A DNA stretch of 64,000 nucleotides, taken from positions 496,001-560,000 of the forward strand of contig NZ_JAUSVO010000002.1 in the NCBI RefSeq assembly GCF_030814715.1. The letters run 5' to 3'. Of this stretch, positions 6,795 through 24,957 are shown one piece after another. The notes beneath the pieces are model-generated. The model had not been told where the DNA came from, did not search any database, and saw nothing but the letters and a program-made list of their open reading frames with translations. Position numbers and translations under genes: made by a program. The stretch's first letter is position 1. Each line of letters opens with the position of its first letter. The stretch comes from Kaistia dalseonensis (GTDB lineage Bacteria > Pseudomonadota > Alphaproteobacteria > Rhizobiales > Kaistiaceae).

Positions 6795-7634
6795 CTAGAG
6801 CTTCACCATATCCATGCCGGTGACGCGCAGCGCCCGTCCGTCCCGCTCCACGATCCCGGCCATGTCGCGTTCCAGCACGTCGCGATCATCGACGCCGCAC
6901 AGCATCCGCCCGGCGAGCGGGTCGAACCGGCCGGCGGCGATATCGGCGATCAGGGACGCGGCGCGCGTCGGAGGAACGTTGATGCCGTCGTCGAACAGTT
7001 GCTGGATGGCGGGCAGATGCGTCTTCCCCGCCTCCGAATAGAGCTGCAGCTCGGTCATCGCCGTCCGGACGAGGCCGGGATCGACGGCGAAGGCGAGCAC
7101 GCCACCTTCCTTCGTCGTGTCGTTCAGGCATTCGGTGAAGCGCATGATACCGGCCTTGCTCGACGCATAGCCGGAACCGTTGGGGAAACTCGTCCCCGTG
7201 CCGCCACCGACGAGATTGACGATGCGGCCCCTGCCCCGCGCCAGCATGGCGGGCGCCACGACGCGGCAGGTGTGGAACGTGCCGCGAAGATTGATCTCGA
7301 TATCGTCCCACCAGAGCTCGGGATCGCACTCCCAGATCGGGCCAAAGGCCCGAAACGAGCCATGATTGTTGACGAGCGTATCGATCGGCCCCAACTCGGC
7401 CACGACGCTCTTCAACGTCTCTTCCACGGCCGCCCGATCGACGAGATCAACGGCCCTGGCGATCGCCGTGCCGCCTTCGGTCGCGATCAACGCCGCCGTC
7501 TCCTCGATCTCGCGCGCCGTTCGCGCCAGCACGGCCACACGGGCGCCGAAGCGCGCCTGATGCAGCGCGATCTCCCGTCCGATGCCGCGGCCCCCGCCGG
7601 TTACGACGGCGACCGTGTCCTGCAAACTCGTCAT
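6795..7634 (-). CDS. SDR-family oxidoreductase, candidate aldose 1-dehydrogenase
   Basis: A 279-residue SDR starting MTSLQDTVAVVTGGG, with GGAGGAGG 6 nt upstream of the ATG (an upstream in-frame start adding 28 residues has no such site). It has TGGGRGIG (12-19), NNHG (89-92), Y156 and K160. The residue usually a catalytic serine (13 before Tyr) is glycine in LVGGGTGT, so catalysis may use T147/T149 or differ. It is downstream of the lactonase-like gene (129 nt gap) in the GH95/importer region. That context suggests oxidation of the released sugar at C1, the step before a lactonase. This role is inference; only the SDR fold is firm. Confidence 0.72.
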   Translation of the reverse strand: MTSLQDTVAVVTGGGRGIGREIALHQARFGARVAVLARTAREIEETAALIATEGGTAIARAVDLVDRAAVEETLKSVVAELGPIDTLVNNHGSFRAFGPIWECDPELWWDDIEINLRGTFHTCRVVAPAMLARGRGRIVNLVGGGTGTSFPNGSGYASSKAGIMRFTECLNDTTKEGGVLAFAVDPGLVRTAMTELQLYSEAGKTHLPAIQQLFDDGINVPPTRAASLIADIAAGRFDPLAGRMLCGVDDRDVLERDMAGIVERDGRALRVTGMDMVKL

Positions 7635-7763
7635 GGCGTCCTCCTCCAGAAATCCGGCCACCGAAAACCCCTGCCCCAGGGATTGGTAAGCCGACAAAAT
7701 ATCGAGCGATACCGGCAACGAAGCTGACCGCAGCCGACCGATGCACGCCGAGGCGCCGCGCGA

Positions 7764-8678
7764 TCAGCGCGCGAAAGCCTCGAACGGATTGGTATGGGTC
7801 AGAAGCGTGATGACGGGCTCCTCCACGCCGCGCCGGCGCAATTCGGGCAGGAGCACGGTGGAGAGATGGGTGTAGGGCAGCGGCGTTCCGCCATCCGGCA
7901 GCGCTGGGTCAAACCAGCCGCGATCATGGCTGAGCAGCAATTGGTCGGCATAGCCGGCATCGAGCACGCTCATGATCAGATCGGCGACCGCGCCATCCTC
8001 GCTCCGTCCGACATGGTCATATTCGATCCAGGCCCCGCGCTCCGCCACGGCGATATTGAGCGCGAAGTCCTTCTCTTCCTGGGTATGGATCGAGATGAAG
8101 CGATCGGCGCGATAGCCCTCCGCCTCGATGATATCGAGCTGGTCCATGACGACGCTGCCCTTGATGGTGTGGCTGCCGATGACGGCGCCGGTCTGTGCGC
8201 CGGCCCGGGCCGCCGCCCGCAGGATCTTCGCCTCGAGCGGCGTTATCCCGTCATCGCCGGCGCTCAGCTTGATCCACCCGGCGCGCACGCCGGTATCCTC
8301 AATGCCGTCATTCAATTCGCCCAGCATCCAGGCTTCGAGCTCCGCCTCGGTGGCGGACCGCACCCAATCGGGAATCCAGGGTTCGCGATAATTGCCGGTC
8401 GGAACGACGATCGGAAAGTTCGTGGCGAGAGACACGGCGAGGTCGAGATCCGCCCGCCGGCCGACGCCGCCGGTCGAACATTCGACGAGGGCGGTGACCC
8501 CGAGCGCCTTGATGCGCTCGATCTCCGGCGCCATCAGCCGCACGACATCCGCGCTCTCGGCCCGCGCATAGCCCGGCTGATCCGGCGTCCGCAGGTCGAC
8601 GAAGACGTGCTCGTGCGGCAGGATCATGCCCAGCTCCGCCTTGCCCCTCGGTCCGAGCGTCGTAAAGAGCTGTTTCAT
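7764..8678 (-). CDS. Phosphotriesterase-family metal hydrolase, candidate sugar lactonase
   Basis: A 304-residue TIM-barrel amidohydrolase of the phosphotriesterase-related family. The ATG is set by GAGGAGG 7 nt upstream. Metal ligands are visible: H22 and H24 (PHEHVF), the bridging lysine K137 (GWIKLSAG), H170 (GSHT), H198 (IHTQ) and D252 (SHDRGW). Natural substrates in this family are often lactones rather than phosphotriesters. Located between a GH95 glycosidase and an SDR dehydrogenase, it fits hydrolysis of an aldonolactone to the aldonate. No signal peptide, so cytoplasmic. Family firm, substrate inferred. Confidence 0.8.
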   Translation of the reverse strand: MKQLFTTLGPRGKAELGMILPHEHVFVDLRTPDQPGYARAESADVVRLMAPEIERIKALGVTALVECSTGGVGRRADLDLAVSLATNFPIVVPTGNYREPWIPDWVRSATEAELEAWMLGELNDGIEDTGVRAGWIKLSAGDDGITPLEAKILRAAARAGAQTGAVIGSHTIKGSVVMDQLDIIEAEGYRADRFISIHTQEEKDFALNIAVAERGAWIEYDHVGRSEDGAVADLIMSVLDAGYADQLLLSHDRGWFDPALPDGGTPLPYTHLSTVLLPELRRRGVEEPVITLLTHTNPFEAFAR

Positions 8679-8814
8679 CGATTCCTCCTCAATCGAGCCA
8701 ATCCGTTTGACGGCAGATCTTCCCCAAGGGCATGCCAGCACGGATAGCCGCCCGCTTCAACCACCGTTCCCGTGCCGGGGCGAGCGCGAGCGCCGGTAAG
8801 GCGCTCAATTCATC

Positions 8815-8827
8815 GTTTCGTCGAAAC
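8815..8827. promoter_or_regulatory. Short perfect dyad upstream of the lactonase-like gene
   Basis: GTTTCG-T-CGAAAC is a perfect 13-bp inverted repeat in the 222-bp gap between the GH95 gene and the lactonase-like gene, 137 nt before the latter's ATG. It could be an operator for an internal promoter, or chance. It resembles but does not equal the TTTCGAT-G-ATCGAAA dyad before the GntR gene (different arm spacing). Confidence 0.25.
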
Positions 8828-8900
8828 CGTGAATGGATCCCACCTCTCGATTTATCGCACTTTCCTGCCGCACAGCCCCTCCGCGCCGCCCGGACGCCGA

Positions 8901-11123
8901 CTAGACGATCCGGCTCCACGCGCCGGCAACGACCTCCAGCACCTTCACCTCACCGCCGAACCGCGCGGTCAGTTGCCCGCCATGCACGGCACGGACCTGG
9001 CATGACGTCACGCGGCCGGCGCTCCAGGCCATGTCGAGTTCGATCCCGCCACGCAGTCGCAGGCCGCGGACGGACCCGTTCGACAATGCCTTGGGCAGCG
9101 CCGGCAGCAGGCGGATTTCGCCGATCCGGCTCTGCGCGATCATCTCGCAAATGCCGGCGGCGCCGCCGAAATTGCCGTCGATCTGGAACGGCGGATGCGC
9201 GTCGAACAGATTGGTATAGGTGCGATCGGGCGAGAGCTGGCGCTTCAGCACCGTCCAGGCGCGTTCGCCGTCGCCGAGCCGGGCCCAGAGGCAGATGCGC
9301 CAGCCAATGCCCCAGCCGGTTGCCTCGTCGCCGCGAATCTCGAGCGAGCGGCGCGCGGCCGCCGCCAGTTCCGGCGTCTCGATCGGATCGATGGCGAGGC
9401 CCGGGAAGAGCGCATAGAGATGCGAGACGTGGCGATGGTCCATCTCGCGCGCCTCCATGTCCCAGTCCTCGAGCCATTCCTGCAACTGGCCGGCCTTGCC
9501 GATCTGGTCCGGCATCAGGCGGCTGCGGGTCTCGCGCACCCGGGCGAGGAAGCTCTCATCCTCTTCCACCCCGGCGGCCAGGATCGCATCGAAGAGATCG
9601 CGCCCGAGCTGGTTGTCCATGGCGCAGCCGACCGACAGGCTCGCGCCGAAAGGATGGACATTCTCGGGCGAATTGGTCGGAACCGTCACGAGCCAGTCGC
9701 TTCCCGGCAATTCGACCAGGAAGTCGAGCAGGAACTCGGCCGCGCCGCGCATCAGCGGGTAGATCCGGCGGAGCAGATCGTCCGGCCAGCCGGCATAGAC
9801 GCAGTGATCCCAGAGCTGGCAGCAGAGCCAGACGCCGCCCATCGGCCAGAGCCCGGGATCCGCCTGGTCGATCGGACCGGTCGCGCGCCAGAGGTCGGTG
9901 TTGTGGTGGAGCACCCAGCCGCCCGTGCCATAATGCTCGCGCGCAACCTCCCGCCCCGTCTCCGCGACATCCTCCACCAGGCTGATCAGCGGCTCGAAGC
10001 ACGCGGCCAGATTGGTCGGGTCCGGTAGCCAGTAGTTCATCTCGGCGTTGATATTGACCGTATATTTGGAGTTCCAAGCCGGTCGGAACTCCGCATTCCA
10101 GATACCCTGCAGGTTCGCCGGCTGCGTTCCCGGCCGCGACGCGCTGATCATGAGATAGCGGCCATAGTTCACATAGAGCGCCGCGAGCGACGGATCTGTC
10201 TCCTTGACGGGATCGGCGACCCGGCGATCGGTCGGAAGATCGTCCTTGCCCGCGCCGAAGCTGAGCGCGAAGCGGCCATAGAGGCTCTGATAATCGGCGA
10301 TGTGATCGGCCCGGATCGCATCCCACCCGCGCGCGACGGCGGCATCGAGCCGGCGTGTCGTCGCGGCTTCCGGATCGCCGGAGACGTCGTCATAGCGCAC
10401 GAAGCTCGTGCCGACATCGACCCAGATCGTGAAGCCCCTGACTCCGGCAAGCCTCAGCCCGCTATCATAGACGCTCATCGCGCCCCCATCGGGAACCACG
10501 CGCAGCCGGGCGACCCAGTCGAGCCCGGCGGGCACGCCATATTCGGCGCGGTTCCGCCCGCGGCAGACGATCTCGCCCAGCACGGCGTCCAGCTCCGGCG
10601 CGAAAGGCTGCTCGATATCATAGCTGATGTCGCTGTCGAACCGTTCGCCGCCTTCGGTCCACATCCGGATGCCGATGACATTGTCCGGCGCCGAGGCGAT
10701 GATCTCGCGGCGATAATGGATGCCGTGATGGCGATAATCGATGGAGGCGACCGCCGAGGCGAGATCGAGCTCGCGCCGATACGAGCCGGGCTCGGGCCGG
10801 TGACGCGTCTCGATGAAGATCCAGCCGGCGGATTGATACGTCATCTGGACGCGCGGACGCGCCATCATGCTGGCGTCGGCGAGACGCTCGGCCGCCGCAT
10901 ATTCGCCGGCGAAGAGCAGTTGCCGCAAAGCGCCCAGATTCGCGTGCGCGCCCTTGTTAGCGGCGCTGTAGGGCGAGCCGGTCCAGAGCGTATCCTCGTT
11001 GAGCTGGATGCGCTCCTTACGGCTGTTGCCATAGACCATCGCGCCCAGGCGTCCATTGCCGACGGGCAAGGCCGCCGTCCACTCGACCCAAGATTCCTTC
11101 GGATACCAAAGACTGTCGGACAT
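8901..11123 (-). CDS. Glycoside hydrolase family 95 (alpha-L-fucosidase / alpha-L-galactosidase), copy 1
   Basis: A 740-residue protein beginning MSDSLWYPKESWVEW; an upstream in-frame start adds 12 unlike residues. GH95 features in order: N-terminal beta domain with PVGNGRLGAMVYG, then the (alpha/alpha)6 barrel with SRPGTQPANLQG, the N357-I-N359 pair (SKYTVNINAEMNYW), acid candidate E549 (GQLQEWLEDWD) and D649 (PFQIDGNFGG), which activates the water via asparagine. All three key positions are present. No signal peptide, so it acts on imported oligosaccharides. It follows the CUT1 permeases (99 nt gap with a hairpin). Strongly similar to the second GH95 at 17930. Fucosidase and L-galactosidase activities both occur in this family. 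Confidence 0.93.
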   Translation of the reverse strand: MSDSLWYPKESWVEWTAALPVGNGRLGAMVYGNSRKERIQLNEDTLWTGSPYSAANKGAHANLGALRQLLFAGEYAAAERLADASMMARPRVQMTYQSAGWIFIETRHRPEPGSYRRELDLASAVASIDYRHHGIHYRREIIASAPDNVIGIRMWTEGGERFDSDISYDIEQPFAPELDAVLGEIVCRGRNRAEYGVPAGLDWVARLRVVPDGGAMSVYDSGLRLAGVRGFTIWVDVGTSFVRYDDVSGDPEAATTRRLDAAVARGWDAIRADHIADYQSLYGRFALSFGAGKDDLPTDRRVADPVKETDPSLAALYVNYGRYLMISASRPGTQPANLQGIWNAEFRPAWNSKYTVNINAEMNYWLPDPTNLAACFEPLISLVEDVAETGREVAREHYGTGGWVLHHNTDLWRATGPIDQADPGLWPMGGVWLCCQLWDHCVYAGWPDDLLRRIYPLMRGAAEFLLDFLVELPGSDWLVTVPTNSPENVHPFGASLSVGCAMDNQLGRDLFDAILAAGVEEDESFLARVRETRSRLMPDQIGKAGQLQEWLEDWDMEAREMDHRHVSHLYALFPGLAIDPIETPELAAAARRSLEIRGDEATGWGIGWRICLWARLGDGERAWTVLKRQLSPDRTYTNLFDAHPPFQIDGNFGGAAGICEMIAQSRIGEIRLLPALPKALSNGSVRGLRLRGGIELDMAWSAGRVTSCQVRAVHGGQLTARFGGEVKVLEVVAGAWSRIV

Positions 11124-11171
11124 CGTTCTCGTACCTGTGACGGAAGCCAATTGGCGCAAGCCGGGCCTGCG

Positions 11172-11222: not shown

Positions 11223-12044
11223 CTATTCCTTGCCGCCGCTCGAGACGCGGTTGCCGACGGCGAACTGGCGCTGGAAGATCAGGAACACGAGCAGCGGCAC
11301 GATCGCGGTGACGATCGCCGCCACGGCCTGCTGGTCGACATTGGGATCATAGGTGCCCGAAATGCGCGCGAGCAGCACCGTCAGCGTGACGTCGTTGCGC
11401 AGGAACAGCATGGGCAGCAGCAGCGAGTTCCAGCACCACAGGAACTGCAGGATGCCGCAGGCGAAGATCGGCGACAGCAGATTGGGCAGCACCACGCGCG
11501 TGAACGTGCTGATCGGGCCGCATCCGTCGATCCGCGCGGCCTCGATCAGGTCCTTGGGGAAATCCTCCAGGAACGACTTCACCAGGAACACCGACCAAGC
11601 ATAGCTCAGTCCGACATACGGGATGATGACAGCCCAGATATTGTCGAGCATGCCCATTTCGCGCCAGAGGCGGAACAGCGGGATGATCACGACCTGCTGC
11701 GGCAGCACGAACGCATTGATGATGATGATGAGCGTCGTGCGGCGAAGGGGAAACTTCAGATAGTGGAAGGCATAGGCCGCCGCCGGCGCCGTGACCATGG
11801 TCAGGACTGTTGCGATCAGCGTGACCTTGGTCGAGACCCAGAGGCTGTTGGCGAGCGGATAATCGGTCCAGACCTTCCGCCACGCATTCAGCGTGAACTG
11901 GTTCTGGCTGAAGTGCCACCAGCCGCGCGCGATCGAATCCGGCGTCTGGAAGGAGGTGGCGACGATGCCGATGATCGGCACCACCCAGATGAGGGCGATG
12001 ATGCCGACGACGAAGACGATCCATTTCGGGGCACGATAGACCAT
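11223..12044 (-). CDS. CUT1 ABC sugar permease, MalG-like
   Basis: A 273-residue permease starting MVYRAPKWIVFVV, with about six membrane spans. The EAA loop is DLIEAARIDGCGPISTFTRVVLPNL. The start overlaps the stop of the MalF-like gene by one base (TGATG), showing translational coupling. Second permease of the importer 11223-14271. It should form the channel with the upstream permease and use a shared ATPase, since none is encoded here. Context with two GH95 enzymes suggests fucosyl- or L-galactosyl-containing oligosaccharides. Confidence 0.92.
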   Translation of the reverse strand: MVYRAPKWIVFVVGIIALIWVVPIIGIVATSFQTPDSIARGWWHFSQNQFTLNAWRKVWTDYPLANSLWVSTKVTLIATVLTMVTAPAAAYAFHYLKFPLRRTTLIIIINAFVLPQQVVIIPLFRLWREMGMLDNIWAVIIPYVGLSYAWSVFLVKSFLEDFPKDLIEAARIDGCGPISTFTRVVLPNLLSPIFACGILQFLWCWNSLLLPMLFLRNDVTLTVLLARISGTYDPNVDQQAVAAIVTAIVPLLVFLIFQRQFAVGNRVSSGGKE

Positions 12045-12985
12045 CAGTGGGCTCCCTTCGTACGCTGCGCGATGGCCGGTATCGCGACGACGAGGACCGC
12101 GACCAGCAGCACGATGGTCGCCGCGGCGCCGTAGCCCAGATTGAACTGGGTCATCGATTCCCGGTACATGAAGAAGCCGACCGTTTCGGTCGCCCGCGCC
12201 GGACCACCATTCGTCAGCACGAAGATGATGTCGAAGGCGCGGAGCGCGCTCAGCAGGTTGATGAAGATGGCGACGCGCGCGCCGGCCGTCGAAAGCGGCA
12301 TCATGATGTACCAGACGACGGCGAGCGGCTTGGCGCCGTCCATCTGGGCGGCTTCCAGCACGGTGCGGGGAATGGTCTGCACGGCCGCGAAGCTCAGCAG
12401 CAAGGGCAGGCCGACCGAGCTCCACGACGCCGCGACGATCAGCGCCATCAGCGCGGAATGGGCCGATCCGAGCCAGGCCTGGCTCCAGTCGCCGAGCCCG
12501 AGCGCGATCAGCACGCCGTTCAGCAGGCCGGACTCACCCGGCCTGAAGATGCCGATCCAGATATAGCCGGCGACGGCCTCCGATATGCCGAAGGTGGCGA
12601 AGATCATCAGGCGGAAGATCGAGGTCTGCTTCGGTGCAAACGAGCACAGCATCGCCAGGAACCAGCCGATCGCCACCGAAATGACGGTCACCCCGATCGT
12701 GAAGATCAGCGTGGTCCAGAGCGTGCCGAGAAAGGTCGGATCCGTGAACAGCCGCTGGTAGTTCGCGATGCCGATGAAGGTGGGCTTGCCAAGACCGCGG
12801 ATCTGCCAGAACGAGATACGGATCGTCTCGAAGAGCGGGTAGATGACCGACAGGCCGAAGAAGATCACGACGGGCGTCAGCAGGGCAAACGCCGCCATCG
12901 ACTGCGGCATGTGAAATCGGGTGGCTCTTGTCGCCGTAGCCGAGCTGGCGTGCGCTCCGCGCACGCCATTGGTTGCGTTGTTCAT
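12044..12985 (-). CDS. CUT1 ABC sugar permease, MalF-like
   Basis: A 313-residue permease. I start at MNNATNGVRG (14 nt after the binding-protein stop, with a GGGG ribosome-binding stretch) rather than 18 nt upstream, which would overlap that stop. It has a cytoplasmic tail, about six spans, and the EAA loop TVLEAAQMDGAKPLAVVWYIMMPL. The region FVLTNGGPARATETVGFFMYRE is typical of MalF/UgpA-type subunits. Operon order on the minus strand is binding protein, MalF-like, MalG-like, GH95. Confidence 0.92.
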   Translation of the reverse strand: MNNATNGVRGAHASSATATRATRFHMPQSMAAFALLTPVVIFFGLSVIYPLFETIRISFWQIRGLGKPTFIGIANYQRLFTDPTFLGTLWTTLIFTIGVTVISVAIGWFLAMLCSFAPKQTSIFRLMIFATFGISEAVAGYIWIGIFRPGESGLLNGVLIALGLGDWSQAWLGSAHSALMALIVAASWSSVGLPLLLSFAAVQTIPRTVLEAAQMDGAKPLAVVWYIMMPLSTAGARVAIFINLLSALRAFDIIFVLTNGGPARATETVGFFMYRESMTQFNLGYGAAATIVLLVAVLVVAIPAIAQRTKGAH

Positions 12986-12999: not shown

Positions 13000-14271
13000 T
13001 CAATAGGACTGCGCGGCGACGGCTTCGATCTGCTCCAAAGTCGGCATGATCTGCGCCTCGACGGGATTGGCGATGAATTTCTGCAGCGCCACGCGATATT
13101 CGTCGACGAGCTGACCGGGCAGCATGTCGCCGAGCACGAAGTGCACCTTGCCCGCCTTGACGTAGCCGACCGACGACGCGGCGACGGGATCATAGGCCGA
13201 AATATCGACCGCAGAGGTCGGCACGGTGAAGCCCGCCTTGGCGATGATGCCAGCGCCTTCGCCATTGATCAGATAGTCGAGGAAGAGATCCGCCCCTTCG
13301 GCATTCGCGCCGAGATTGGTGGCCAGTACTTCCTTAGAATCGACCAGCGAATCGTCGTCATGGCCGAGGCCGAAGGCCGGGAACTTGCCGAGGGCGTAGT
13401 CCTTGCCGGGCTCCAGATGATATTGCGAGCGGGCGCGGGCGTTGATCCACATGCCGATCAGCAGGTAGTTGGCGCTCCGGTCGACGAAGAGACGGTCGGC
13501 CGCGTCGTCCCAGTGCGAGGCGTAGATCGTCTGGATGTCGGCGCAGCAGCCCTTCGCCATCATCTCGCTGTAGAATTGCAGCGCCTTCACCAGGCGCTCG
13601 TCGGTCCACTTGATCTTGTGACTGGCGAGTTCGTTGATCACTTCCGGGCCGCCGACACGCAGCAGCAGCGATTCGAACCATTCGCTATGGCCGTAGATCT
13701 TGCCGGGCAAGGCGACCGGCTCGGCAAAGCCGGCCTTGCGCAGCGGCTCGAAGGTGGCCGTGAAACCGTTCCAGTCGGCCGGGAACGCGGTCAGCCCGAT
13801 GCGGGTCAGATCCTGCGGCTCATGCCAGATTCCGCTCCGATAACCGAAGATATAGGGAACGCCGTAGACGGCGCCATCGGTCGTGCTCAGCTCACGCCAG
13901 GTCGGCGACAGCAGGCTGTCCCAGTTCTTCTCGGTCCAGACGGAGGAGACGTCGCGCAGCATTCCGGCATCGGCGAGTTCCTTGCGGAAGGCCGGCCAGG
14001 CATTGATGATGAGATCGACCTTCTGGCCCCCGAGCAGCGCCGTGCGGATACCGCCGCGCTGATCGCCCGATGTCGTGACGGGAACCTGCTTGATGGTCAG
14101 ATCCGGATATTTGGCTTCGAAGCCGGCGATGACCTGCTTGATGACGGCCGCATCGGCTCCTCCGAGCCAGTTCATCAAGGAAATCTCGCCGGTTGGCTGC
14201 GCGGATGCCGGTTGGCAGGCCATGGTCACGGCAATGCCGAGCGCGCCGAGCACGCGTCCCAATCGAATCAT
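13000..14271 (-). CDS. CUT1 sugar-binding protein (family 1), copy 1
   Basis: A 423-residue periplasmic binding protein. The signal peptide is MIRLGRVLGALGIAVTMACQ, with cleavage near ASA-QPTG. The mature start EISLMNWLGGADAAVIKQVIAGFEAK is the usual SBP_bac_1 beginning. It is clearly paralogous to the binding protein at 23665: both have SGDQRG.IRTAL.GGQK, NxWPAFRKELADAGML and a CC pair (KGCCAD here). It heads the importer operon and delivers an oligosaccharide to the permeases at 12985 and 12044. Confidence 0.93.
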   Translation of the reverse strand: MIRLGRVLGALGIAVTMACQPASAQPTGEISLMNWLGGADAAVIKQVIAGFEAKYPDLTIKQVPVTTSGDQRGGIRTALLGGQKVDLIINAWPAFRKELADAGMLRDVSSVWTEKNWDSLLSPTWRELSTTDGAVYGVPYIFGYRSGIWHEPQDLTRIGLTAFPADWNGFTATFEPLRKAGFAEPVALPGKIYGHSEWFESLLLRVGGPEVINELASHKIKWTDERLVKALQFYSEMMAKGCCADIQTIYASHWDDAADRLFVDRSANYLLIGMWINARARSQYHLEPGKDYALGKFPAFGLGHDDDSLVDSKEVLATNLGANAEGADLFLDYLINGEGAGIIAKAGFTVPTSAVDISAYDPVAASSVGYVKAGKVHFVLGDMLPGQLVDEYRVALQKFIANPVEAQIMPTLEQIEAVAAQSY

Positions 14272-16709: not shown

Positions 16710-17812
16710 CCGCGCCGACGATCATCCAGTTCGGCACGAGCCGGTTTCTCCAGGCCCATGTCGACCTGATGCTCTCGGAGGCGGCGGCGGGCGAAGCCGT
16801 CGGCTCGGTCTGCATCGTGGAGACCACCGGCTCGCCGGCGTCACAGGCGCGCGTCAAGGCATTCCGAACGCAAGCGGCCTACCCGGTCAGGATTCGCGGT
16901 CTGGTGAATGGCCGTCCCGTCGATGTCGACCGTCGCGTCACGGCCGTGACCGACGGCCTTTCGGCGCGGGCGGATTGGGAGCGGTTGCGGACCCTTTTCG
17001 TCGACCATGCCGATTACGTCATCTCCAATACCGGCGACCGCGGCTTCGACGTCCCCGAAAAGCCCGATTCGACACCGGCCGGATGGACGACCTTTCCCGA
17101 ACTGCTGACCAGCCTGCTCTATGAACGGTTCCGTGCCGGCAGGCCCGGCCTCACCATCATGCCGTGCGAACTCGTCGAGCGTAACGGCGACAGGCTGCGC
17201 GCGCTCGTGCTGACGCTCGCCGGCGCGGCATCGCCATCCGCCGACTTCCGCGCCTGGATCGAGACCGCATGCATCTGGGCGAACTCGCTGGTCGATCGCA
17301 TCGTCTCGGAGCCGATCGAACCGATCGGCGCCGTGGCCGAACCCTATGCGCTCTGGGCGATCGAGCGGACGGACGGGCTGGTGCCGCCCTGCTCCCACGC
17401 CGATATCCAACTGGTCGACGATCTCGACTTCATCGAGAAGCGCAAGCTGTTCCTGCTCAATCTCGGCCACACGCTGATGGCGGAGCGCTGGCGCGAGAGC
17501 GGCCGGGCGGCCGACGAAACGGTCCGCGCGATGATCGCCGATCCGACGGTGCGCGGCTGGCTCGACGAGATCATGATCGGCGAGGTGGTTCCGGCCTTCG
17601 GCGACAGGCAGGCCGAGGCGAGCGACTATTGGCGCATCTGTCTCGACCGGTTCGGCAATCCGTTTCTCGATCATCGTCTTGCCGATATCGGGCAGAACCA
17701 TGCGGCCAAGATCGACCGACGGGCCGGCGGTCTGGTGCGCTGGGCGCGGCGCGTGCGGCCCGATGTCGGCTTTCCCCGGCTCGCGGCGATCTTCCCGGGC
17801 CTCGGCGGCTGA
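16706..17812 (+). CDS. Mannitol-dehydrogenase-family reductase, UxaB-like (tagaturonate reductase candidate)
   Basis: A 368-residue member of the polyol/mannonate dehydrogenase family. N-terminal IQFGTSRFLQAHVD is the nucleotide-binding GxxxFxRAH-type motif. Other blocks are ISNTGDRGFDV, MPCELVERNGDRLRALV and the catalytic-region KLFLLNLGHTLMAERW (Lys, Asn and His retained). Length is below the ~480 of UxaB, mainly in the C-terminal helical part, but the core is intact. Expected reaction: D-tagaturonate + NADH to D-altronate. Its ATGA overlap with the LgoD-like gene argues for consecutive steps. Fructuronate or another keto-acid is the main alternative. Confidence 0.78.
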   Translation: MTAPTIIQFGTSRFLQAHVDLMLSEAAAGEAVGSVCIVETTGSPASQARVKAFRTQAAYPVRIRGLVNGRPVDVDRRVTAVTDGLSARADWERLRTLFVDHADYVISNTGDRGFDVPEKPDSTPAGWTTFPELLTSLLYERFRAGRPGLTIMPCELVERNGDRLRALVLTLAGAASPSADFRAWIETACIWANSLVDRIVSEPIEPIGAVAEPYALWAIERTDGLVPPCSHADIQLVDDLDFIEKRKLFLLNLGHTLMAERWRESGRAADETVRAMIADPTVRGWLDEIMIGEVVPAFGDRQAEASDYWRICLDRFGNPFLDHRLADIGQNHAAKIDRRAGGLVRWARRVRPDVGFPRLAAIFPGLGG

Positions 17813-17851: not shown

Positions 17852-17871
17852 AGTTGATATCGATATCAACT
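17852..17871. promoter_or_regulatory. Perfect 20-bp palindrome, probable LacI-family operator
   Basis: AGTTGATATCGATATCAACT is a complete palindrome with a central CG, the usual layout of LacI-family operators. It lies 58 nt upstream of the second GH95 start, in the 117-nt gap after the UxaB-like gene. The 11-bp right half CGATATCAACT recurs at 25018-25028, upstream of the orphan binding protein. The LacI gene at 20181 is the obvious candidate factor. Confidence 0.65.
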
Positions 17872-17929: not shown

Positions 17930-20161
17930 ATGACCGCTTTGGAGCTTTGGTATCCACGTCCGGCAGCGCTCTGGACCGAGGCCCTGCCGATCGGCAATGG
18001 CCGCCTCGGCGCCATGGTGTTCGGCGGATACCCCGAAGAGCGGATCCAGCTCAATGAGAGCACGTTCTGGTCCGGCGGCCCCTACCAGCCGGTCAATCCC
18101 GATGCCCTCAAATACCTCCCCGAAGTTCGTGCGCTGATCTTTGCCGGCCGCTATGCCGAAGCGGAGGCCCTCGCCAACCGCTTCCTGATGGCGAAGCCGC
18201 ACGTGCAAATGTCGTATCAGCCGGTGGGCGATGTCCGTATCGCCTTTGAGCATGTGGGTCCGATCGAGGACTACCGTCGCAGCCTGTCCCTCGACCGGGC
18301 CATCGTCACCACAAGCTACCGCTCGGGCGGTGTCGGCTTCACGCGCGAGATCATCGCCTCGGCTGCCTCCGACATCATCATCATGCGGCTGACGGCCGAT
18401 CGACCTGGAGCGCTCACCTTTCGGTTGAACCTGACCAGCCCGCAGTCCGGCGCGGCCATGACCCCGGGTCCCGACTGGAACGGCCTCCGGGGAAAGGGGC
18501 CTGATGCGCATGGCATTTCCGGAGCGCTCGAATTTGCGTTCAAGGCAACGGTGTTGACCACGAATGGCAACATCAACACAACGCTGGAAGAGGTTCGCGT
18601 CGCGGCTGCCACCGAGGCCGTCATCCTGATCAATGCCGCGACGAGCTTCCTGCGCTTCGACGAAGTCGGCGCCGATCCGATAGCGCGTGTCGATGCTGGC
18701 CTCGATGCCTGTCGCGGCCTGTCCTGGGCGGATCTTGTCGCGGCCCATGAGACGGAGCACCGGCGGCTGTTCGACACACTCGCGATCGACCTCGGCACCA
18801 CCGCCGCGGCCGAACGGCCGACAGATGAGCGGGTGGCCCTGTTCGCCGAGGGCGACGATCCGGCTCTCGCCGCGCTCTACCTGCAATATGGCCGCTATCT
18901 GATGATCGCCTCGTCCCGGCCGGGCACCCAACCGGCCAATCTGCAGGGCCTCTGGAACGAGGAAGTCCGTCCGCCCTGGGACAGCAAATATACCGCCAAC
19001 ATCAATCTGCAGATGAACTACTGGCTGCCGGACCCCGCCAATCTGGCCGAGTGCTTCGAGCCGCTGGTCGCCATGGTCGAGGATCTCGCCATCACCGGCG
19101 CGACGATGGCGCGCGCCCATTACGACGCCCCCGGCTGGGTCCTGCACCATAACACCGATCTCTGGCGCGCTACCGGCCCGATCGACGGCGCCCAATGGGG
19201 CCTCTGGCCGATGGGCGGCGCCTGGCTCTGCGTGCAACTGCACGATCACGCTGACTATTCCGGCGATGAGGCCTTGCTGCGGCGGATCTATCCGCTGATG
19301 AAGGGGGCCGCCGAATTCCTGCTCGCCGTGCTCGTTCCCCTGCCGGGCACGGACTTACTGGTGACATCGCCGTCCGTCTCACCCGAAAATGTGCACCCCT
19401 TTGGCGCGACGGTCTGCGCCGGACCGGCGATGGACCGCCAGATCGCCCGCGACCTCTTTGAGCGCACCATCGCGACGGCGGAGCAGCTCGGTATCGATGC
19501 GCCGTTCAGTGCCACGCTCGCGCAGACATTGCCGCGCCTGTCGCCCGACCGCATCGGCGCTGCCGGCCAGCTTCAGGAATGGCTCGAAGACTGGGATCTC
19601 GCCGCGCCAGAGATCCATCATCGGCATGTCTCCCACCTCTACGCGCTCTATCCGAGCTGGCAGATCGACCCCGACACGACGCCGGAACTCGCCGCGGCGG
19701 CTCAGCGCTCGCTCGAGATTCGCGGCGATGACGCCACCGGCTGGGGCATTGGCTGGCGCATCAATCTCTGGTGCCGCCTGCGAGATGGCGCACATGCCTA
19801 TGACGTGCTCGCCATGCTGCTTCATCCCGAGCGGACCTATCCGAACCTCTTCGATGCCCATCCGCCATTCCAGATCGACGGCAATTTCGGCGGAGCGACC
19901 GGCATTCTGGAGATGCTCGTGCAATCCAGACCGGGCGAACTGCTGCTATTGCCGGCACTGCCACCCCAATGGCGGGACGGGCGCGTTGCCGGAGTCAGGG
20001 CGCGGGGCGGATTGTCGCTCGACCTGAGCTGGCGCGCCGGTGTGCCGACCGAGATCGTGATCGAGGCCCGCTTCCCGCAGCGCCTCGTGGTGCAGTTTGC
20101 CGACAAGAGCCTGCCGGTCGAACTATCCGCCGGCGAGAGGCGGACCATTCACATGGGTTGA
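17930..20161 (+). CDS. Glycoside hydrolase family 95 (alpha-L-fucosidase / alpha-L-galactosidase), copy 2
   Basis: A 743-residue GH95 enzyme starting MTALELWYPRPAALW; GGAGAGG sits 10 nt upstream, and the upstream ATG at 17913 runs into a stop. Domain order is as in copy 1: PIGNGRLGAMVFGG, SRPGTQPANLQG, N357-I-N359 (SKYTANINLQMNYW), E550 (GQLQEWLEDWD) and D650 (PFQIDGNFGG). No signal peptide. It is preceded by a perfect palindrome and followed, convergently, by the LacI gene. Keeping two similar but distinct copies suggests different linkages or leaving groups. Confidence 0.93.
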   Translation: MTALELWYPRPAALWTEALPIGNGRLGAMVFGGYPEERIQLNESTFWSGGPYQPVNPDALKYLPEVRALIFAGRYAEAEALANRFLMAKPHVQMSYQPVGDVRIAFEHVGPIEDYRRSLSLDRAIVTTSYRSGGVGFTREIIASAASDIIIMRLTADRPGALTFRLNLTSPQSGAAMTPGPDWNGLRGKGPDAHGISGALEFAFKATVLTTNGNINTTLEEVRVAAATEAVILINAATSFLRFDEVGADPIARVDAGLDACRGLSWADLVAAHETEHRRLFDTLAIDLGTTAAAERPTDERVALFAEGDDPALAALYLQYGRYLMIASSRPGTQPANLQGLWNEEVRPPWDSKYTANINLQMNYWLPDPANLAECFEPLVAMVEDLAITGATMARAHYDAPGWVLHHNTDLWRATGPIDGAQWGLWPMGGAWLCVQLHDHADYSGDEALLRRIYPLMKGAAEFLLAVLVPLPGTDLLVTSPSVSPENVHPFGATVCAGPAMDRQIARDLFERTIATAEQLGIDAPFSATLAQTLPRLSPDRIGAAGQLQEWLEDWDLAAPEIHHRHVSHLYALYPSWQIDPDTTPELAAAAQRSLEIRGDDATGWGIGWRINLWCRLRDGAHAYDVLAMLLHPERTYPNLFDAHPPFQIDGNFGGATGILEMLVQSRPGELLLLPALPPQWRDGRVAGVRARGGLSLDLSWRAGVPTEIVIEARFPQRLVVQFADKSLPVELSAGERRTIHMG

Positions 20162-20181
20162 GGCGCGACTGGCCGGCGCCT
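20161..20181. terminator. Bidirectional hairpin between convergent GH95 and LacI genes
   Basis: AGGCGC (20161-20166)/GCGCCT (20176-20181), 6-bp stem with 9-nt loop, filling the gap between the two facing stop codons. No U-tract on either side, so termination strength is uncertain. Confidence 0.35.
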
Positions 20182-21230
20182 CAATCTGCCGGCGACCAGC
20201 GGCGCGTCGAGCCGCGCAGGATGACGTCGCATTTGAGCACGACCGATCGCAACGGCCGCGACTTGCCGGGATCGAGCCGCGACACGATCAGTGTCGCGAT
20301 CGATTCAGCAATCGCGGCAATCGGTTGGGAGATTGCCGTGATCGCCGGCTCGCGCAGGCGAAACAGCGCGACATCGTCGAAGCTGACGAGCGAGAGATCG
20401 TCGGGCACGCGCAGCCCGTTATCCCTCATCCACTCCAGCACGCCGATGGTCATTCCGTAGTTCGAGACGAAGACCGCCGTCGGCGGCTTGTCCAGCTGCA
20501 TCAACTGTCGCGCCGCGTCATAGCCGCTATCCGGGCGCCATGTGCCCTCGACGACATAGGCGGGGTCGATCGGGATGCCCCGGTCGTGCAAGGCCGCCTC
20601 ATAGCCTTCGAGACGCTGGCGACCCGAAGAATCATACTGCGCGCCCGCAATGATGGCGACGCGTTCGTGCCTGAGGTCAAGCAGATGGCTGACGGCCCGA
20701 TAGCTCGCGCTGCTGTTCTCGACCATTACGCGATCGGCGGCGATGCCCGGAATATCGTTATTGTAGAACACGATCGGGACGCCGTCGGCGGTCATCTGCT
20801 CGAGCCGCGCCCGCACCTCCGCCACACCGTCCATGATCAGGGCATCGACACGCTGCGCGTCGAAGAAATCGAGCGCGTCGTTGATCACCCGCGCATCATG
20901 GCTGTGGCAATAGATGACCAGCGCACGCCCGGACGTGCGCAGCAGCCTGGCGAGATGCTCCACCATGTCGGAGTGGAACTCGTCGAAGGTCGGGATCAGC
21001 AGACCGATCATATGCGTCTTGTCGGTCTTCATCGCCGCGGCAACCGCATTGCGGCGATAGGAGAGCTTCTCGATCGCGGCCTCGATCTGCTCGCGATTTC
21101 CGCGGCGAATCTCGCGCCCGTTCAGGAAGCGGGAGACCGTGCCGATGGCGACGCCCGCCGCCTCCGCGACGTCAGCGATCGTGGCGGCTCTTCGCCTGGT
21201 CCCGTTCTGTGGCAGGTCTTCGTCGGACAT
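20181..21230 (-). CDS. LacI-family transcriptional regulator
   Basis: A 349-residue repressor. The N-terminal helix-turn-helix ATIADVAEAAGVAIGTVSRFLNG is followed by the hinge helix SYRRNAVAAAMKTDKTHMIGLLIP. The periplasmic-binding-protein-like sensor has VIVENSSASYRAVSHLL- and FDDVALFRLREPAITAISQP-type blocks. Convergent with GH95 copy 2 and downstream of the GHL6-like gene. The palindrome at 17852 and the half-copy at 25018 flank this gene, making it the probable repressor of GH95 copy 2 and the orphan binding protein. Confidence 0.93.
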   Translation of the reverse strand: MSDEDLPQNGTRRRAATIADVAEAAGVAIGTVSRFLNGREIRRGNREQIEAAIEKLSYRRNAVAAAMKTDKTHMIGLLIPTFDEFHSDMVEHLARLLRTSGRALVIYCHSHDARVINDALDFFDAQRVDALIMDGVAEVRARLEQMTADGVPIVFYNNDIPGIAADRVMVENSSASYRAVSHLLDLRHERVAIIAGAQYDSSGRQRLEGYEAALHDRGIPIDPAYVVEGTWRPDSGYDAARQLMQLDKPPTAVFVSNYGMTIGVLEWMRDNGLRVPDDLSLVSFDDVALFRLREPAITAISQPIAAIAESIATLIVSRLDPGKSRPLRSVVLKCDVILRGSTRRWSPAD

Positions 21231-21245
21231 CGTGCATCATGCTCT

Positions 21246-21267: not shown

Positions 21268-21310
21268 CTGCCGCTTCCTAGCTGATCGCACCGATCGATC
21301 CAAGCGTCAC

Positions 21311-21337: not shown

Positions 21338-21348
21338 GCGAGGATTGG

Positions 21349-23400
21349 CTAGACGCCTTCGAGCACGAGGGCGCTGTGGATGTGGAGGCGCGGCAGCGTC
21401 ACTTCCACGCGTCCATCCTGCAGCATCTGCCAGTCGACATCGGCGCCCGTCAGGGCGTCAAAGATGCGCGAAGGACGGCTTCCGAGCCGGACCTTTGCCG
21501 TCACCGGACCGATTGCCGGGACGTCCTCGATCATCTCGAGCACGCGCGTCGGGCCGGCCTCGGTCGGCACGCCCTTGCCGCGCACCTGCGGCGCGCCATA
21601 GAGCAGGTGAAGCACGTGACGGCCTTCGGCTTCCTGGCGCGTCAGCGTCGCGCGCGCGGCCGACGGCAGGTCGGTCACGAGGACCGGGTCCGGCATCAGG
21701 CGACGGATCAGGCCGCGGATGATGTACTTGTAAAGCGGCTGTCCGTAGGCGTGGTACATCTGGAAGATCGGGAACGCGACATAACCAATGCCCTGATATT
21801 CCGTGACGCCCGCTCCGATCGTGCCCGCGGCCGGATCGTCCGGCGTATGCTGGTGCGAACAGAAGTGGCGATAGTTGCGGTTGAAATAGGACGGAACCAC
21901 CGAGGCGAGCACTGTCGCCGCCCCGCTGACGATCGCCTGTCCGGTCCCATACATCACGAAGGGCGAGTGCGGCAGGCTGGCGTCGAGCGCGTCGGGATCG
22001 GCGCGGAGGTAGGATGGCGTGAATTCAACCAGCCCGTTGGCCGCTTCGAGGCCGAGATCGAGGGCAAAGCCATCCGCGCCAATGCCCGACTGGCCGGAAA
22101 GGAGCAGCCGTCCGCCCGCCGCGACATAGCTCTTCAGGCGCGCGGCAAGCGCCGCATCGATCGGAATCGTGTCGGGCAGGATCACCAGCCGGTAGGGCTC
22201 GAACGAGGCTGTTCCATCGATCACGTCGAAGGGCAGCTTCAGCTCCTGCAGCATCTGCGCGGCGCCGTCATCGCTCGCATTATTGCGGTCGCCATTCGGA
22301 TGGAAGTACTCGGCCGCAAGGATCGCCACTTCAGAGACCTGGCGCGCGCCCTTCAGGAACGGCTCCAGCCGCTCGATCCGCTCATAGGCCGGCGCGATCG
22401 AGCGATAGGTGTCGTGGTTGATGGCGCCGTTCGGATGCAGCTGGTCGCCGACAAGGCACTTCGCCCCGAGCGCCACCATCTGCGCCGCCTCATAGGTAAG
22501 CGCCTCGGCATGCTTGAAGCCGCCAAATTCGCCCCAGGCGGTATGGAACTTGCCGGTCTGCCCGAGGAAATCGAAGCCGAGCGTCGCCGCATAGCGGGCG
22601 CTCGACGGGAAATGATCATAGCCCCAGCCGCCGGTCGGCAGGCTTTCGAGCTCCAGATGCGAATAGGTATCGAAGCGATGCCGTCCCATCTTGTGGATGT
22701 GGCCGCAATTATAGAACACGCGCTGCTCCGGATATTCCGCGAACAGTGCGTCCGAAATATAGCGCCGGAACTCCTCGTTCACGGCTTCGTCGTTCTTGAG
22801 CCGGTCGGCGGGGTTCTCGGGGTCGAGGCCTTCGGCGATCATCCGGTCGATGCAGGCCGAACAGACGCAATCGGGCGTCAGGACGATGTCGAAGAAGAGG
22901 CCCTGGGTCTTGTAGTTCGAGGCGACTTCACGAGCCTGGTCGAGGATATAGTCGCGCGCACCCTGATGGTTAAGGCAGATGGTGTGCCAGGCCGGGCTCA
23001 GCTGCTTGAGGCTCGACGGGTCGTTCGCGAGCGCCCGCGAGAACTGGTTCGTAGCGCTCATGACGCGCCATTCCGGATGCTCGCGCGCCGACAGCTCGTC
23101 CCACTGGACGGAGATATAGACGGGCGTCTCGATGTCCGCTGCCGCGCAGGCGCTGATCATCTCGCCCATCAGGTCCGGGCGCGCCAGATTGGGGTGCGGC
23201 TTGCCAACCTTCGTCGGATAGTAAGACCAGCCGTGATGGCACTTGGCAAACACGGTGATCGAGTCGACATGCGCCGCCTTCAGGGTCGCGACGAAGTCCT
23301 CAGCGTCGAACGCAGCGCCGACATCCGGAATATGCTCCGACGTATGGAAGTCCAGGTGGATCTGGCGATAGCGCAGCGGCTTGAATTTCGTCTCGGACAT
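21349..23400 (-). CDS. GHL6-type putative glycosidase with beta-galactosidase-trimerisation-like domain (GH151-like alpha-L-fucosidase candidate)
   Basis: A 683-residue protein starting MSETKFKPLRYRQIHLDFHTSEHI (AAGGA 7 nt upstream). The N-terminal TIM barrel resembles 'hypothetical glycosyl hydrolase 6' proteins (RQIHLDFHTS, AKCHHGWSYYPTKVG). It includes a conserved CVCSAC cysteine cluster and FYNCGHIHKMG. From about residue 370 a Rossmann-like segment (VSEVAILAAEYF, YRLVILPDTIPID, GGRLLLSGQSG) matches the GH42-type trimerisation domain. Proteins of this layout are usually annotated alpha-L-fucosidase, as I recall in GH151. Position amid GH95 genes supports a fucose/L-galactose role. No signal peptide. 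Domain layout is firm, activity is not. Confidence 0.65.
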   Translation of the reverse strand: MSETKFKPLRYRQIHLDFHTSEHIPDVGAAFDAEDFVATLKAAHVDSITVFAKCHHGWSYYPTKVGKPHPNLARPDLMGEMISACAAADIETPVYISVQWDELSAREHPEWRVMSATNQFSRALANDPSSLKQLSPAWHTICLNHQGARDYILDQAREVASNYKTQGLFFDIVLTPDCVCSACIDRMIAEGLDPENPADRLKNDEAVNEEFRRYISDALFAEYPEQRVFYNCGHIHKMGRHRFDTYSHLELESLPTGGWGYDHFPSSARYAATLGFDFLGQTGKFHTAWGEFGGFKHAEALTYEAAQMVALGAKCLVGDQLHPNGAINHDTYRSIAPAYERIERLEPFLKGARQVSEVAILAAEYFHPNGDRNNASDDGAAQMLQELKLPFDVIDGTASFEPYRLVILPDTIPIDAALAARLKSYVAAGGRLLLSGQSGIGADGFALDLGLEAANGLVEFTPSYLRADPDALDASLPHSPFVMYGTGQAIVSGAATVLASVVPSYFNRNYRHFCSHQHTPDDPAAGTIGAGVTEYQGIGYVAFPIFQMYHAYGQPLYKYIIRGLIRRLMPDPVLVTDLPSAARATLTRQEAEGRHVLHLLYGAPQVRGKGVPTEAGPTRVLEMIEDVPAIGPVTAKVRLGSRPSRIFDALTGADVDWQMLQDGRVEVTLPRLHIHSALVLEGV

Positions 23401-23569
23401 CTTGGTTCCTTGGGAGATCATTCCTGGGTTCCGGGGCGCTTCCGCACTCCGGCCCTAGGATAAGGTGAGGACGTCATACGCCGACGTCGGACGGCCAAGG
23501 GTGGCGGATCATCGCGATCGAAGGCCCAGCCGGGCTGGCATCAGGGATCGACCGGAGAGGATAGATTGC

Positions 23570-23637
23570 CCGGGCGGCCAGGGTTGGCTGGCCGCCCGGC
23601 GCTCGCACCGACCGACATGCCGGGAGGGAAGCATGTC
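23570..23637 (-). terminator. Two hairpins after the orphan binding-protein gene
   Basis: First after the stop comes GACATGC/GCATGTC (23614-23620/23631-23637). Then a strong 11-bp perfect stem follows, CCGGGCGGCCA (23570-23580)/TGGCCGCCCGG (23589-23599), with an 8-nt loop. No U-tract. Together they probably end or protect the minus-strand transcript. Confidence 0.5.
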
Positions 23638-23664
23638 GCCTTCGGTCCGGGCAGGTCAGTTGGC

Positions 23665-24957
23665 TCAGTACAGCGTGACGGCCTTGGCCTCGAGCGTGGT
23701 CATCACGGAGTCGATCGTCGCATCGGTCGGGTTCTGCAGGAACTTCTGCAGCTGGACGCGATATTCATCGACCAGGTCGCCCGGCAGCAGGTCGCCCAGC
23801 ACGAACTGAACCTTCGACTTCGCGACATTGTCGACGGCGATCTTCGTCACCGGGCCGTAGAGGCTCGCATCGACCTTGTTGCTCGGCGAGGCGAGACCAT
23901 GCTTGGCGACGATATTGGCAGCTTCCGCCGTTCCGAGGAAGGCGAGGAACGCGTCGGCCGCGGCGGGATTGTCGCCCGAGCTCAGCCCGACGAACTCCTT
24001 GGAGTCGACGCTCGACACGTCGTCATGTCCGGCGCCCATGGTCGGGAACTGGAAGAGCGAGTAGTCGACACCTTCCTTGAGCGCGTAGTCGGACTTCGCC
24101 ATCCCGTTCACCCACATGCCGATCAGCTCATAGCCGGCAGTCGATGCTCTGAGGACGTTGTTGGCCGCATTGTCCCAATCGGTCGCCAGCATGACCGTGG
24201 GATCGCCACAGCAATTCGCCTTCAGGAGCTCGGCATATTTCTGCAGCGTCGTCTTGACGATCGGATCGGTCCACGGGATCTCGTGACGGGCCAGCTTCGC
24301 GGCCGCCTCGGCGCCGGCCGTGCGCAGCAGCAGGTTTTCAAACCACTCCGTCTGCGCCCAGACCTTGGCGGGAACCGCGATCGGCGTCACGCCGATGCCA
24401 TTCAGCTTCGCGAAACTCGCCTTGAACTCGTCCCAATCCTTCGGCGCCGCGTCGATGCCAGCCTTCTTCAGCGTATCCGGCCGGTAGAAGATGCCGCTGC
24501 GATCGCCGAACGTATAGGTGACACCATAGGTCACGCCATCGATCTGACCGAGCTTGCGCCAGCTATCGGGGATATTGTCGCCCCACTTGCCGGCGTCCCA
24601 CTGCTGGTCGAGCGGACGCAGCATGCCGGCATCGGCCAGTTCCTTGCGGAAGGCAGGCCAGGTGTTGGTCAAGAGGTCCGCCTTCTGGCCGCCGATCAGG
24701 GCGGTGCGGATCGCGCCGCGCTGATCGCCAGAAACGGTCAGGTTGATGTTGCGGAACTTGACGCCCGGGTTCTTGGCCGTGAACGCGTCCTCGAGATCCT
24801 GCAGGACCTGGAACTGCGAGCCGGTCTCCCAGTTCAGAAACACCAGCTCGCCGCTGACGTCCTGGGCATGCGCGAGCGGCCCGAACGCTGCCGTGACCAG
24901 CAATCCGGCCATCCATGCAGCAGCATTCCGCCCGATCGCGGGTTTCGTAATCCTCAT
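23665..24957 (-). CDS. CUT1 sugar-binding protein (family 1), copy 2, without adjacent permeases
   Basis: A 430-residue periplasmic protein. The ATG at 24957 has AAGGAGG 8 nt upstream and opens a signal peptide (MRITKPAIGRNAAAWMAGLL, cleavage near AHA-QDVS). It is a close paralogue of the binding protein at 13000: shared SGDQRGAIRTALIGGQK, NTWPAFRKELADAGML, CC pair (ANCCGD), GAGHDD and LLPGDLVDEYRVQLQKF. No permease or ATPase is next to it, so it probably feeds the permeases at 11223-12985. An 11-bp half of the LacI-type palindrome is 61 nt upstream. Confidence 0.92.
   Translation of the reverse strand: MRITKPAIGRNAAAWMAGLLVTAAFGPLAHAQDVSGELVFLNWETGSQFQVLQDLEDAFTAKNPGVKFRNINLTVSGDQRGAIRTALIGGQKADLLTNTWPAFRKELADAGMLRPLDQQWDAGKWGDNIPDSWRKLGQIDGVTYGVTYTFGDRSGIFYRPDTLKKAGIDAAPKDWDEFKASFAKLNGIGVTPIAVPAKVWAQTEWFENLLLRTAGAEAAAKLARHEIPWTDPIVKTTLQKYAELLKANCCGDPTVMLATDWDNAANNVLRASTAGYELIGMWVNGMAKSDYALKEGVDYSLFQFPTMGAGHDDVSSVDSKEFVGLSSGDNPAAADAFLAFLGTAEAANIVAKHGLASPSNKVDASLYGPVTKIAVDNVAKSKVQFVLGDLLPGDLVDEYRVQLQKFLQNPTDATIDSVMTTLEAKAVTLY

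Follow-up and report, generated by a model that had tools for sequence, protein, structure and literature searches.

An LgoD-UxaB gene pair joined to GH95 and GH151 hydrolase genes in Kaistia dalseonensis: a candidate island for L-galactoside uptake and processing

Which sugar is served by a gene island that joins two families of alpha-L-fucosidase-type glycoside hydrolases (GH) to a sugar importer and to a putative L-galactonate dehydrogenase and tagaturonate reductase? The question is raised by the window, the 64,000-nucleotide stretch of DNA analysed here (C2:496001-560000 in the genome of Kaistia dalseonensis, 5.18 Mb in 11 contigs and designated G000; other G and L numbers denote the other genomes and stretches of the comparison), in which an earlier note had proposed a complete pathway for L-galactosides. 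Gene families were assigned by matches to Pfam, PDB and NCBIfam, and the start codons of seven genes were set later than in the longest open reading frame, a choice followed by these coordinates:

6795..7634, minus strand: short-chain dehydrogenase/reductase (SDR), flanking gene (PF00106, 2.2e-45)
7764..8678, minus strand: phosphotriesterase-fold hydrolase (PTE), possible lactonase (PF02126, 5e-44)
8901..11123, minus strand: GH95 copy a, alpha-L-fucosidase/galactosidase family (PF22124, alignments, motifs)
11223..12044, minus strand: CUT1 permease (PF00528)
12044..12985, minus strand: CUT1 permease (PF00528)
13000..14271, minus strand: sugar-binding protein 1 (SBP_bac_1, PF01547)
14385..15287, minus strand: GntR/FCD regulator (PF00392 and PF07729)
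15312..15326, no strand: perfect palindrome TTTCGATGATCGAAA between gntR and lgoD, candidate GntR operator
15699..16709, plus strand: LgoD-like, putative L-galactonate 5-dehydrogenase, zinc alcohol dehydrogenase family (identity to E. coli LgoD, context)
16706..17812, plus strand: short UxaB-like, putative tagaturonate reductase, mannitol dehydrogenase family (NF002969, LgoD linkage)
17854..17869, no strand: candidate LacI-type operator TTGATATCGATATCAA, 5' of GH95 copy b
17930..20161, plus strand: GH95 copy b (PF22124, alignments, motifs)
20181..21230, minus strand: LacI regulator (Pfam)
21349..23421, minus strand: GH151 (GHL6), alpha-L-fucosidase-family hydrolase (PF14871; PDB 6TVK, 1.2e-149)
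23665..24957, minus strand: sugar-binding protein 2 (SBP_bac_1, PF01547)
25010..25027, no strand: candidate LacI-type operator, 5' of the binding-protein 2 gene
25313-26242: aldo-keto reductase (AKR) gene, in the window, outside the island

The genes named in the earlier note (two GH95, GHL6/GH151, a CUT1 importer, two binding proteins, SDR, PTE, and LgoD overlapping UxaB) are all present on the implied strands; lgoD (15699-16709) and uxaB (16706-17812) share 4 bases. The importer comprises two permeases and two binding proteins, but no ATPase was found among the genes scanned, nor did the ATPase marker have a match in 6701-26600. About 0.2 kb separates the PTE start from the GH95 copy a gene, and the interval of about 8.9-25.0 kb is, with moderate confidence, a predicted uptake-and-processing unit. 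Short glycosides ending in alpha-L-galactose, possibly also in alpha-L-fucose, would be imported by the binding proteins and CUT1 permeases with an ATPase supplied from elsewhere, and the L-sugar would be released by cytoplasmic GH95 and GH151 enzymes. L-Galactose would become L-galactonate by the action of an aldose dehydrogenase and a lactonase, LgoD would oxidize L-galactonate at C5 to D-tagaturonate, the short UxaB would reduce this to D-altronate, and UxaA, encoded elsewhere (C2:295 kb), would form 2-keto-3-deoxygluconate (KDG) from D-altronate. Every substrate and enzyme location in this account is predicted from sequence, and we judge the account as a whole somewhat favoured. The gene families, catalytic residues, LgoD-UxaB linkage, GH95/GH151 co-occurrence and operator-like sites are features of the DNA itself.

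The LgoD-UxaB core is well supported by sequence as the predicted pair for conversion of L-galactonate via D-tagaturonate to D-altronate, which upholds that part of the earlier proposal. The window LgoD is closer to E. coli LgoD (40.7% identical) than to RspB (31.0% identical; the LgoD FastTree phylogeny was rooted on RspB), and has Cys38 and a Cys-rich structural-zinc stretch. The window UxaB (27.7% identical to E. coli UxaB) belongs to the expected family, but is a short form of 368 amino acids, versus 483 in E. coli. It contains the sequence KLFLLNLGH, matching K-x4-N-x2-H, which we take to be the polyol-dehydrogenase family signature, and all 32 other copies have the pattern, whatever its position, within the part that aligns. 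Its closest named relatives are in Mesorhizobium sp. BR1-1-16 (69% identical) and Kaistia soli (68% identical). G000 also has a second short UxaB paralogue (C2:847146-848231, L056, 52% identical) without LgoD, a relative of which has similar neighbours in five genomes of the same genus (L063, L064, L065, L067 and L068).

Among the 397 genomes of the order searched, short UxaB occurs at 33 places in 32 genomes; all 33 were inspected, in fetched stretches of about 20 kb (those of G278 and G276 were longer, a bias towards these two), and an LgoD homologue is nearby in 23 and not in 10. In 4 of 20 loci UxaB escaped the gene caller and was recovered with tblastn markers. The 23 LgoD-linked places include AKR in 6, any lactonase family in 8, UxaA in 4, GH95 in 4, GH151 in 4, SDR in 1 and L-fuconate dehydratase (FucD) in 0, and none of these seven was found at the 10 LgoD-less places. 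A GntR relative is near lgoD in most LgoD-linked loci. Of four plasmid records with UxaB inspected (out of 50), three also have LgoD, which is absent in Shinella. Relatives of the pair lie beside altronate dehydratase and sugar kinase genes: GntR-LgoD-UxaB-UxaA-sugar kinase adjoins genes of a tripartite ATP-independent periplasmic (TRAP) transporter in Thioclava, the order in Thalassospira is GntR-LgoD-UxaB-UxaA-TRAP, and in Paenibacillus a long UxaB, UxaA and LgoD are accompanied by a kinase of KDG type and an aldolase, both recognized by eye. Neither a kinase step nor inversion at C5 is sensible unless the substrate has a 6-hydroxyl group, as L-galactose does, and by this reasoning the kinase in LgoD-UxaB-UxaA clusters suggests an aldonate route that needs this group. 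The Sphingomonas parapaucimobilis locus (FucP, AKR, amidohydrolase, split UxaA, LgoD and UxaB) may represent another fork, its split UxaA being possibly a heteromeric fuconate dehydratase.

Coupling of the pair to GH95, GH151 and the importer, also part of the earlier proposal, is supported by the gene neighbourhoods of four genomes (G000, G278, G225 and G276) and by an apparently shared operator in G225. The widest set, in one stretch, is that of G276, which belongs to another family: UxaA, AKR, UxaB, LgoD, a CUT2 transporter, GntR, PTE, importer, GH151, LacI, an ABC-ATPase match (28% identical) and GH95. One GH95 copy is missing in G278 and in G276; the same holds near the G225 island, where GntR and the first binding protein are missing too. 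GH95 copy a has an 83% identical relative in G278 (L001), and copy b has relatives in G225, G276 and Rhizobium. A GH151 search of 385 genomes of the class matched G000 only, G225, G276 and G278 not being among the genomes shown as searched.

In G225, the candidate operator TTGATATCGATATCAA of the window is exact 5' of GH95 copy b and recurs with 2 mismatches 5' of lgoD; the latter site was found from the GH95 copy b site alone, with 0 occurrences in 200 shuffles of that stretch. A matrix was built from eight LacI-type sites; built without the G225 lgoD site, it recovers that site (20.9 vs. a threshold of 19.6). Three further matches outside the building set lie 5' of the G225 importer, in the gap between PTE and the importer in G276, and 5' of the operon of R. 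leguminosarum WSM1325, so that G225 has LacI-type sites 5' of the importer, GH95 copy b and lgoD. A scan of 66 other loci (1,327,953 bases) gave 3 matches; two of them repeat the G225 sites, picked up in a stretch that overlaps (L173), and one is background. In the window, no LacI-type site was found 5' of lgoD, GH95 copy a, PTE or SDR at the threshold of 19.6, and the second match to TTGATATCGATATCAA (3 mismatches, 0.2 expected) is inside the SDR gene. The TTTCGATGATCGAAA palindrome, a candidate GntR operator, is identical in K. soli (L002:8723); with 3 mismatches allowed, no copy was found in L001. Scans of 6700-26600 gave 6 promoter-like sites (vs. 3.4, standard deviation 1.9, in shuffles) and 6 terminator-like sites (vs. 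9.4), nothing usable in either case.

The first two steps had been assigned in the earlier note to the SDR as L-galactose 1-dehydrogenase and the PTE as L-galactonolactonase, with which the island would be self-sufficient as far as altronate. The two genes are adjacent in G000, a PTE relative (66% identical) lies within the G276 LgoD cluster, and some PTE-family proteins are lactonases; the presumed metal ligands of the window PTE are present (H-x-H, K158, H191, H219 and D273), and its match to the phospho-furanose lactonase model NF045706 is weak (38 vs. 630 bits). SDR relatives (E 1e-60), however, are found in 19 of the 397 genomes and beside LgoD-UxaB in one (G000), and PTE relatives (1e-70) in 21 and beside LgoD-UxaB in two (G000 and G276). 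Six genomes have both, adjacent in four (G000, G278, G099 and G230), and the SDR-PTE stretches of G278, G099 and G230 contain neither LgoD nor UxaB within 20 kb; those of G278 and G099 adjoin a 76% identical relative of the window AKR. No specific sugar dehydrogenase is among the best 25 of 214 NCBIfam matches of the SDR, and among its 597 PDB matches the best 60 are SDRs of a general kind. The SDR is thus not supported as a pathway enzyme and may be regarded as a neighbouring gene, while the PTE may contribute as a lactonase. In two genomes of the same genus (L138 and L139), the SDR-PTE-AKR group occurs with iron-dependent alcohol dehydrogenase-like, aldehyde dehydrogenase and GntR genes.

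Related clusters instead repeatedly contain an AKR as the dehydrogenase, and the structures it matches best in the PDB bear the name L-galactose dehydrogenase (G276 AKR, 1.3e-29). The AKR of the window (25313-26242) was rejected for this role: it is missed by the markers for L-galactose dehydrogenase-like AKRs, and its 76% identical relatives accompany SDR-PTE. These markers have no match in the island, which therefore lacks the clustered AKR of pathways of the Bacteroides vulgatus and Luteolibacter LG18 type. The G000 protein most similar to the G276 AKR (55% identical) is encoded next to a PF04909 amidohydrolase at C2:241500-243363, and L-galactose dehydrogenase and lactonase are most likely such an AKR-amidohydrolase pair encoded outside the island, rather than the SDR. 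By eye, C2:241-249 kb (L137) contains this AKR and amidohydrolase, a second AKR, a branched-chain-type ABC transporter and a LarA-like gene, making it another aldose-oxidizing locus.

Later enzymes are also encoded outside the island: altronate dehydratase (UxaA, PF04295) at C2:295294, as a pathway of the B. vulgatus/LG18 type has it at the genome level, and two PF01081 aldolases. Between this UxaA and the LgoD-linked one of G237, identity is 60%. Both genome checks had been recommended in the earlier note; its description of the island as complete did not stand, as altronate dehydratase, KDG kinase, aldolase and the ATPase are not among the island genes. The operator scan found no site at the G000 loci of FucD, UxaA and the AKR-amidohydrolase pair.

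L-Galactose rather than L-fucose is tentatively predicted as the sugar. The earlier observation that fuconate dehydratase and fucose isomerase are lacking is correct within the island, but elsewhere in the genome C1:277074-278357 encodes a FucD homologue (relatives at 78-80% identity are annotated L-fuconate dehydratase), and the fucose-isomerase C domain occurs in a protein encoded at C8:166735. The former lies at C1:274-278 kb (L019) together with a GH29-like gene and an AKR (both by eye), probably a separate L-fucose route. The latter is at C8:165-171 kb (L174), where a fucose-isomerase-like gene, a split transketolase and an FGGY-type kinase were seen by eye beside a ribose-type ABC transporter, an arrangement that resembles D-apiose catabolism. 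L-Fuconate dehydratase is near LgoD in 0 of the 23 LgoD-linked loci of the order and in 3 plasmid loci. No FucD match at 1e-60 was found in G278, G225 or G276 (10 of 14 genomes tested were negative), and fucose isomerase (PF02952) has no match in G225 or G276 and one below the cut-off in G278. Other fuconate dehydratases may be present where FucD is absent, since a heteromeric UxaA-type enzyme is mentioned in PMC6336799. In Neorhizobium NCHU2750, a UxuB/LgoD/UxaA branch adjoins a second branch that comprises FucD, D-threo-aldose dehydrogenase, amidohydrolase and mutarotase, the layout to be anticipated if the initial steps are common to L-fucose and L-galactose. An AKR that acts on D-arabinose, L-fucose and L-galactose has been reported (PMC6336799).

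Several observations weigh against L-galactosides as the substrates, beginning with the hydrolases. Both GH95 copies (PF22124, 1.5e-155 and 2.9e-163) retain the catalytic residues (T-x-N-x-N, the Glu of SPEN and the Asp of DGNF), and both match the fucosidase XacAfc95 (7KMQ; 734 and 939 bits) better than the galactosidase BACOVA_03438 (4UFC; 580 and 637 bits); their nearest characterized relative is XacAfc95, which is specific for L-fucose (PMC8245568). The Thr proposed as a marker of L-galactosidases is in both window copies, yet also in XacAfc95, and the Thr/His marker was dropped as an L-galactose signature in view of that paper. GH151 has a sole PDB match, the alpha-L-fucosidase 6TVK (1.2e-149), its D178, E259 and H523 correspond to D154, E235 and H503 of ALfuk2 (all conserved; numbering counted by hand on the alignment), and characterized GH151 enzymes are fucosidases (PMC10154630). 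All three hydrolases are probably cytoplasmic, with no N-terminal signal peptide seen by eye in GH95 copy a. Both enzymes of the acid pathway fall below curated NCBIfam cut-offs: LgoD has 199.5 vs. 376 bits with its best model (NF007489, zinc-dependent oxidoreductase), and UxaB, which at 368 amino acids is not full length, 197.1 vs. 359 bits with NF002969. Compared with the 10 places without LgoD, 27 LgoD-linked loci (23 of the order and four on plasmids) show no significant enrichment of AKR, lactonase or UxaA (Fisher's exact test, 0.155, 0.079 and 0.155, respectively). Of five LgoD plasmid loci inspected from 60 records, four have no UxaB match: Ciceribacter (L175) and Sphingomonas insulae (L176), where the LgoD-like zinc dehydrogenase is beside FucD, and Mesorhizobium huakuii (L177) and Loktanella (L178). 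These enzymes perhaps catalyze another step of L-fucose or L-galactose use; the fifth locus (L179) has a long UxuB-type reductase. Three Rhizobium/Sinorhizobium plasmid regions were inspected from 27 records (Rhizobium johnstonii, R. leguminosarum and Sinorhizobium B11), and each has the importer-GH151-LacI-GH95 module but neither LgoD nor UxaB. The plasmids of Sinorhizobium B11, Rhizobium BG4 and WYJ-E13 carry FucD as well as GH151, and a search of plasmids for LgoD at 1e-80, which gave 60 records, matched none of these three.

These facts could be accommodated if the island served fucosides, GH95 and GH151 freeing L-fucose for the FucD cluster on C1, with free L-galactonate served by LgoD-UxaB as a neighbour that has no tie to them or is promiscuous. 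The fucosidase relatives of the hydrolases, the grouping on C1, the Rhizobium module, which has no LgoD nearby and in three records shares its plasmid with FucD, and K. soli, in which gntR-lgoD-uxaB-lacI occur with no hydrolases or importer nearby, are all in keeping with this, but the joined island is found in G278, G225 and G276 without a FucD match and a LacI-type site is at lgoD in G225, and we consider a fucoside island rather unlikely. Distinctly less probable is a new L-fucose route in which FucD is replaced: LgoD would oxidize L-fuconate at C5, UxaB would form 6-deoxy-D-altronate, UxaA would dehydrate it and a phosphorylation-free aldolase would follow. The families of the hydrolases would fit, as would LgoD-like genes beside FucD and the three of four island genomes that have no FucD match and no fucose-isomerase match over the cut-off; inversion at C5, however, would be pointless for a 6-deoxy acid, sugar kinases occur in some related clusters, and we know of no L-fucose route via 6-deoxy-D-altronate. 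A UxaA-type fuconate dehydratase would also be a simpler substitute for FucD (PMC6336799). The self-sufficient island, with SDR and PTE completing the path to altronate, is very improbable given how seldom either gene accompanies LgoD-UxaB.

If L-galactosides are nevertheless the substrates, the GH151 enzymes of the island may be the first alpha-L-galactosidases in that family; that either this holds or the island is an undescribed L-fucose route in genomes without FucD is, taken jointly, a proposal we advance as doubtful. To our knowledge, little is known of soil bacteria that consume L-galactose and of their enzymes. The present comparison connects a defined acid pathway with two GH families, predicts a possible alpha-L-galactosidase activity for GH151 and offers a likely function for a recurring, poorly named family of short reductases, and the LacI operator makes the question of the sugar easy to test. 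L-Galactose is present in rhamnogalacturonan II (PMC6353982) and in corn xylan (PMC4491172).

The closest known systems share parts of the proposed pathway. In B. vulgatus, BVU_0219, BVU_0220 and BVU_0222 take L-galactose via its lactone and L-galactonate to D-tagaturonate (pathway and two enzymes according to PMC12632266), with an AKR and a lactonase that have no counterparts in the Kaistia island, in which import and GH genes are joined instead. The same paper describes L-galactose catabolism of the same chemistry in Luteolibacter LG18 (lguABCDEF) and cites the B. vulgatus pathway; LG18 likewise has L-galactose dehydrogenase, L-galactonate dehydrogenase and tagaturonate reductase, but its cluster includes altronate dehydratase and aldolase, which in Kaistia are encoded outside the island, and GH95, GH151 and an ABC importer are not among the genes in its figure legend (PMC12632266). 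In E. coli, lgoT-lgoR-lgoD with uxaB and uxaA belong to the same LgoD and UxaB families, but the route begins at the acid and UxaB is 115 residues longer. The lactonase of B. vulgatus, in the L-galactose pathway described by Hobbs in 2014 for this species (also called Phocaeicola vulgatus), is reportedly a cog3618 protein. The GH151-GH95 operon of Rhizobium and Sinorhizobium (L160-L162) has the order SBP-permease-permease-GH151-LacI-UgpC ATPase-GH95 (SBP, sugar-binding protein) and the same LacI-type operator 5' of SBP, but within the 30 kb fetched neither LgoD nor UxaB is present. In the non-phosphorylative L-fucose pathway, an aldose dehydrogenase and a lactonase carry out the corresponding reactions on the 6-deoxy sugar, but the FucD of that pathway is not in the Kaistia island and has a homologue elsewhere in the genome. 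BACOVA_03438 and XacAfc95 share family and catalytic residues with the two GH95 copies. No account of the Kaistia island was found in the literature searched (listings and the beginnings of abstracts, most subscription papers being outside its scope). The earlier statement that no such system had been described may be right as regards the exact combination of genes, but the chemistry is published (PMC12632266), and the apparent novelty of the island is the coupling of a known L-galactose chemistry to ABC import and cytoplasmic GH95 and GH151 hydrolases.

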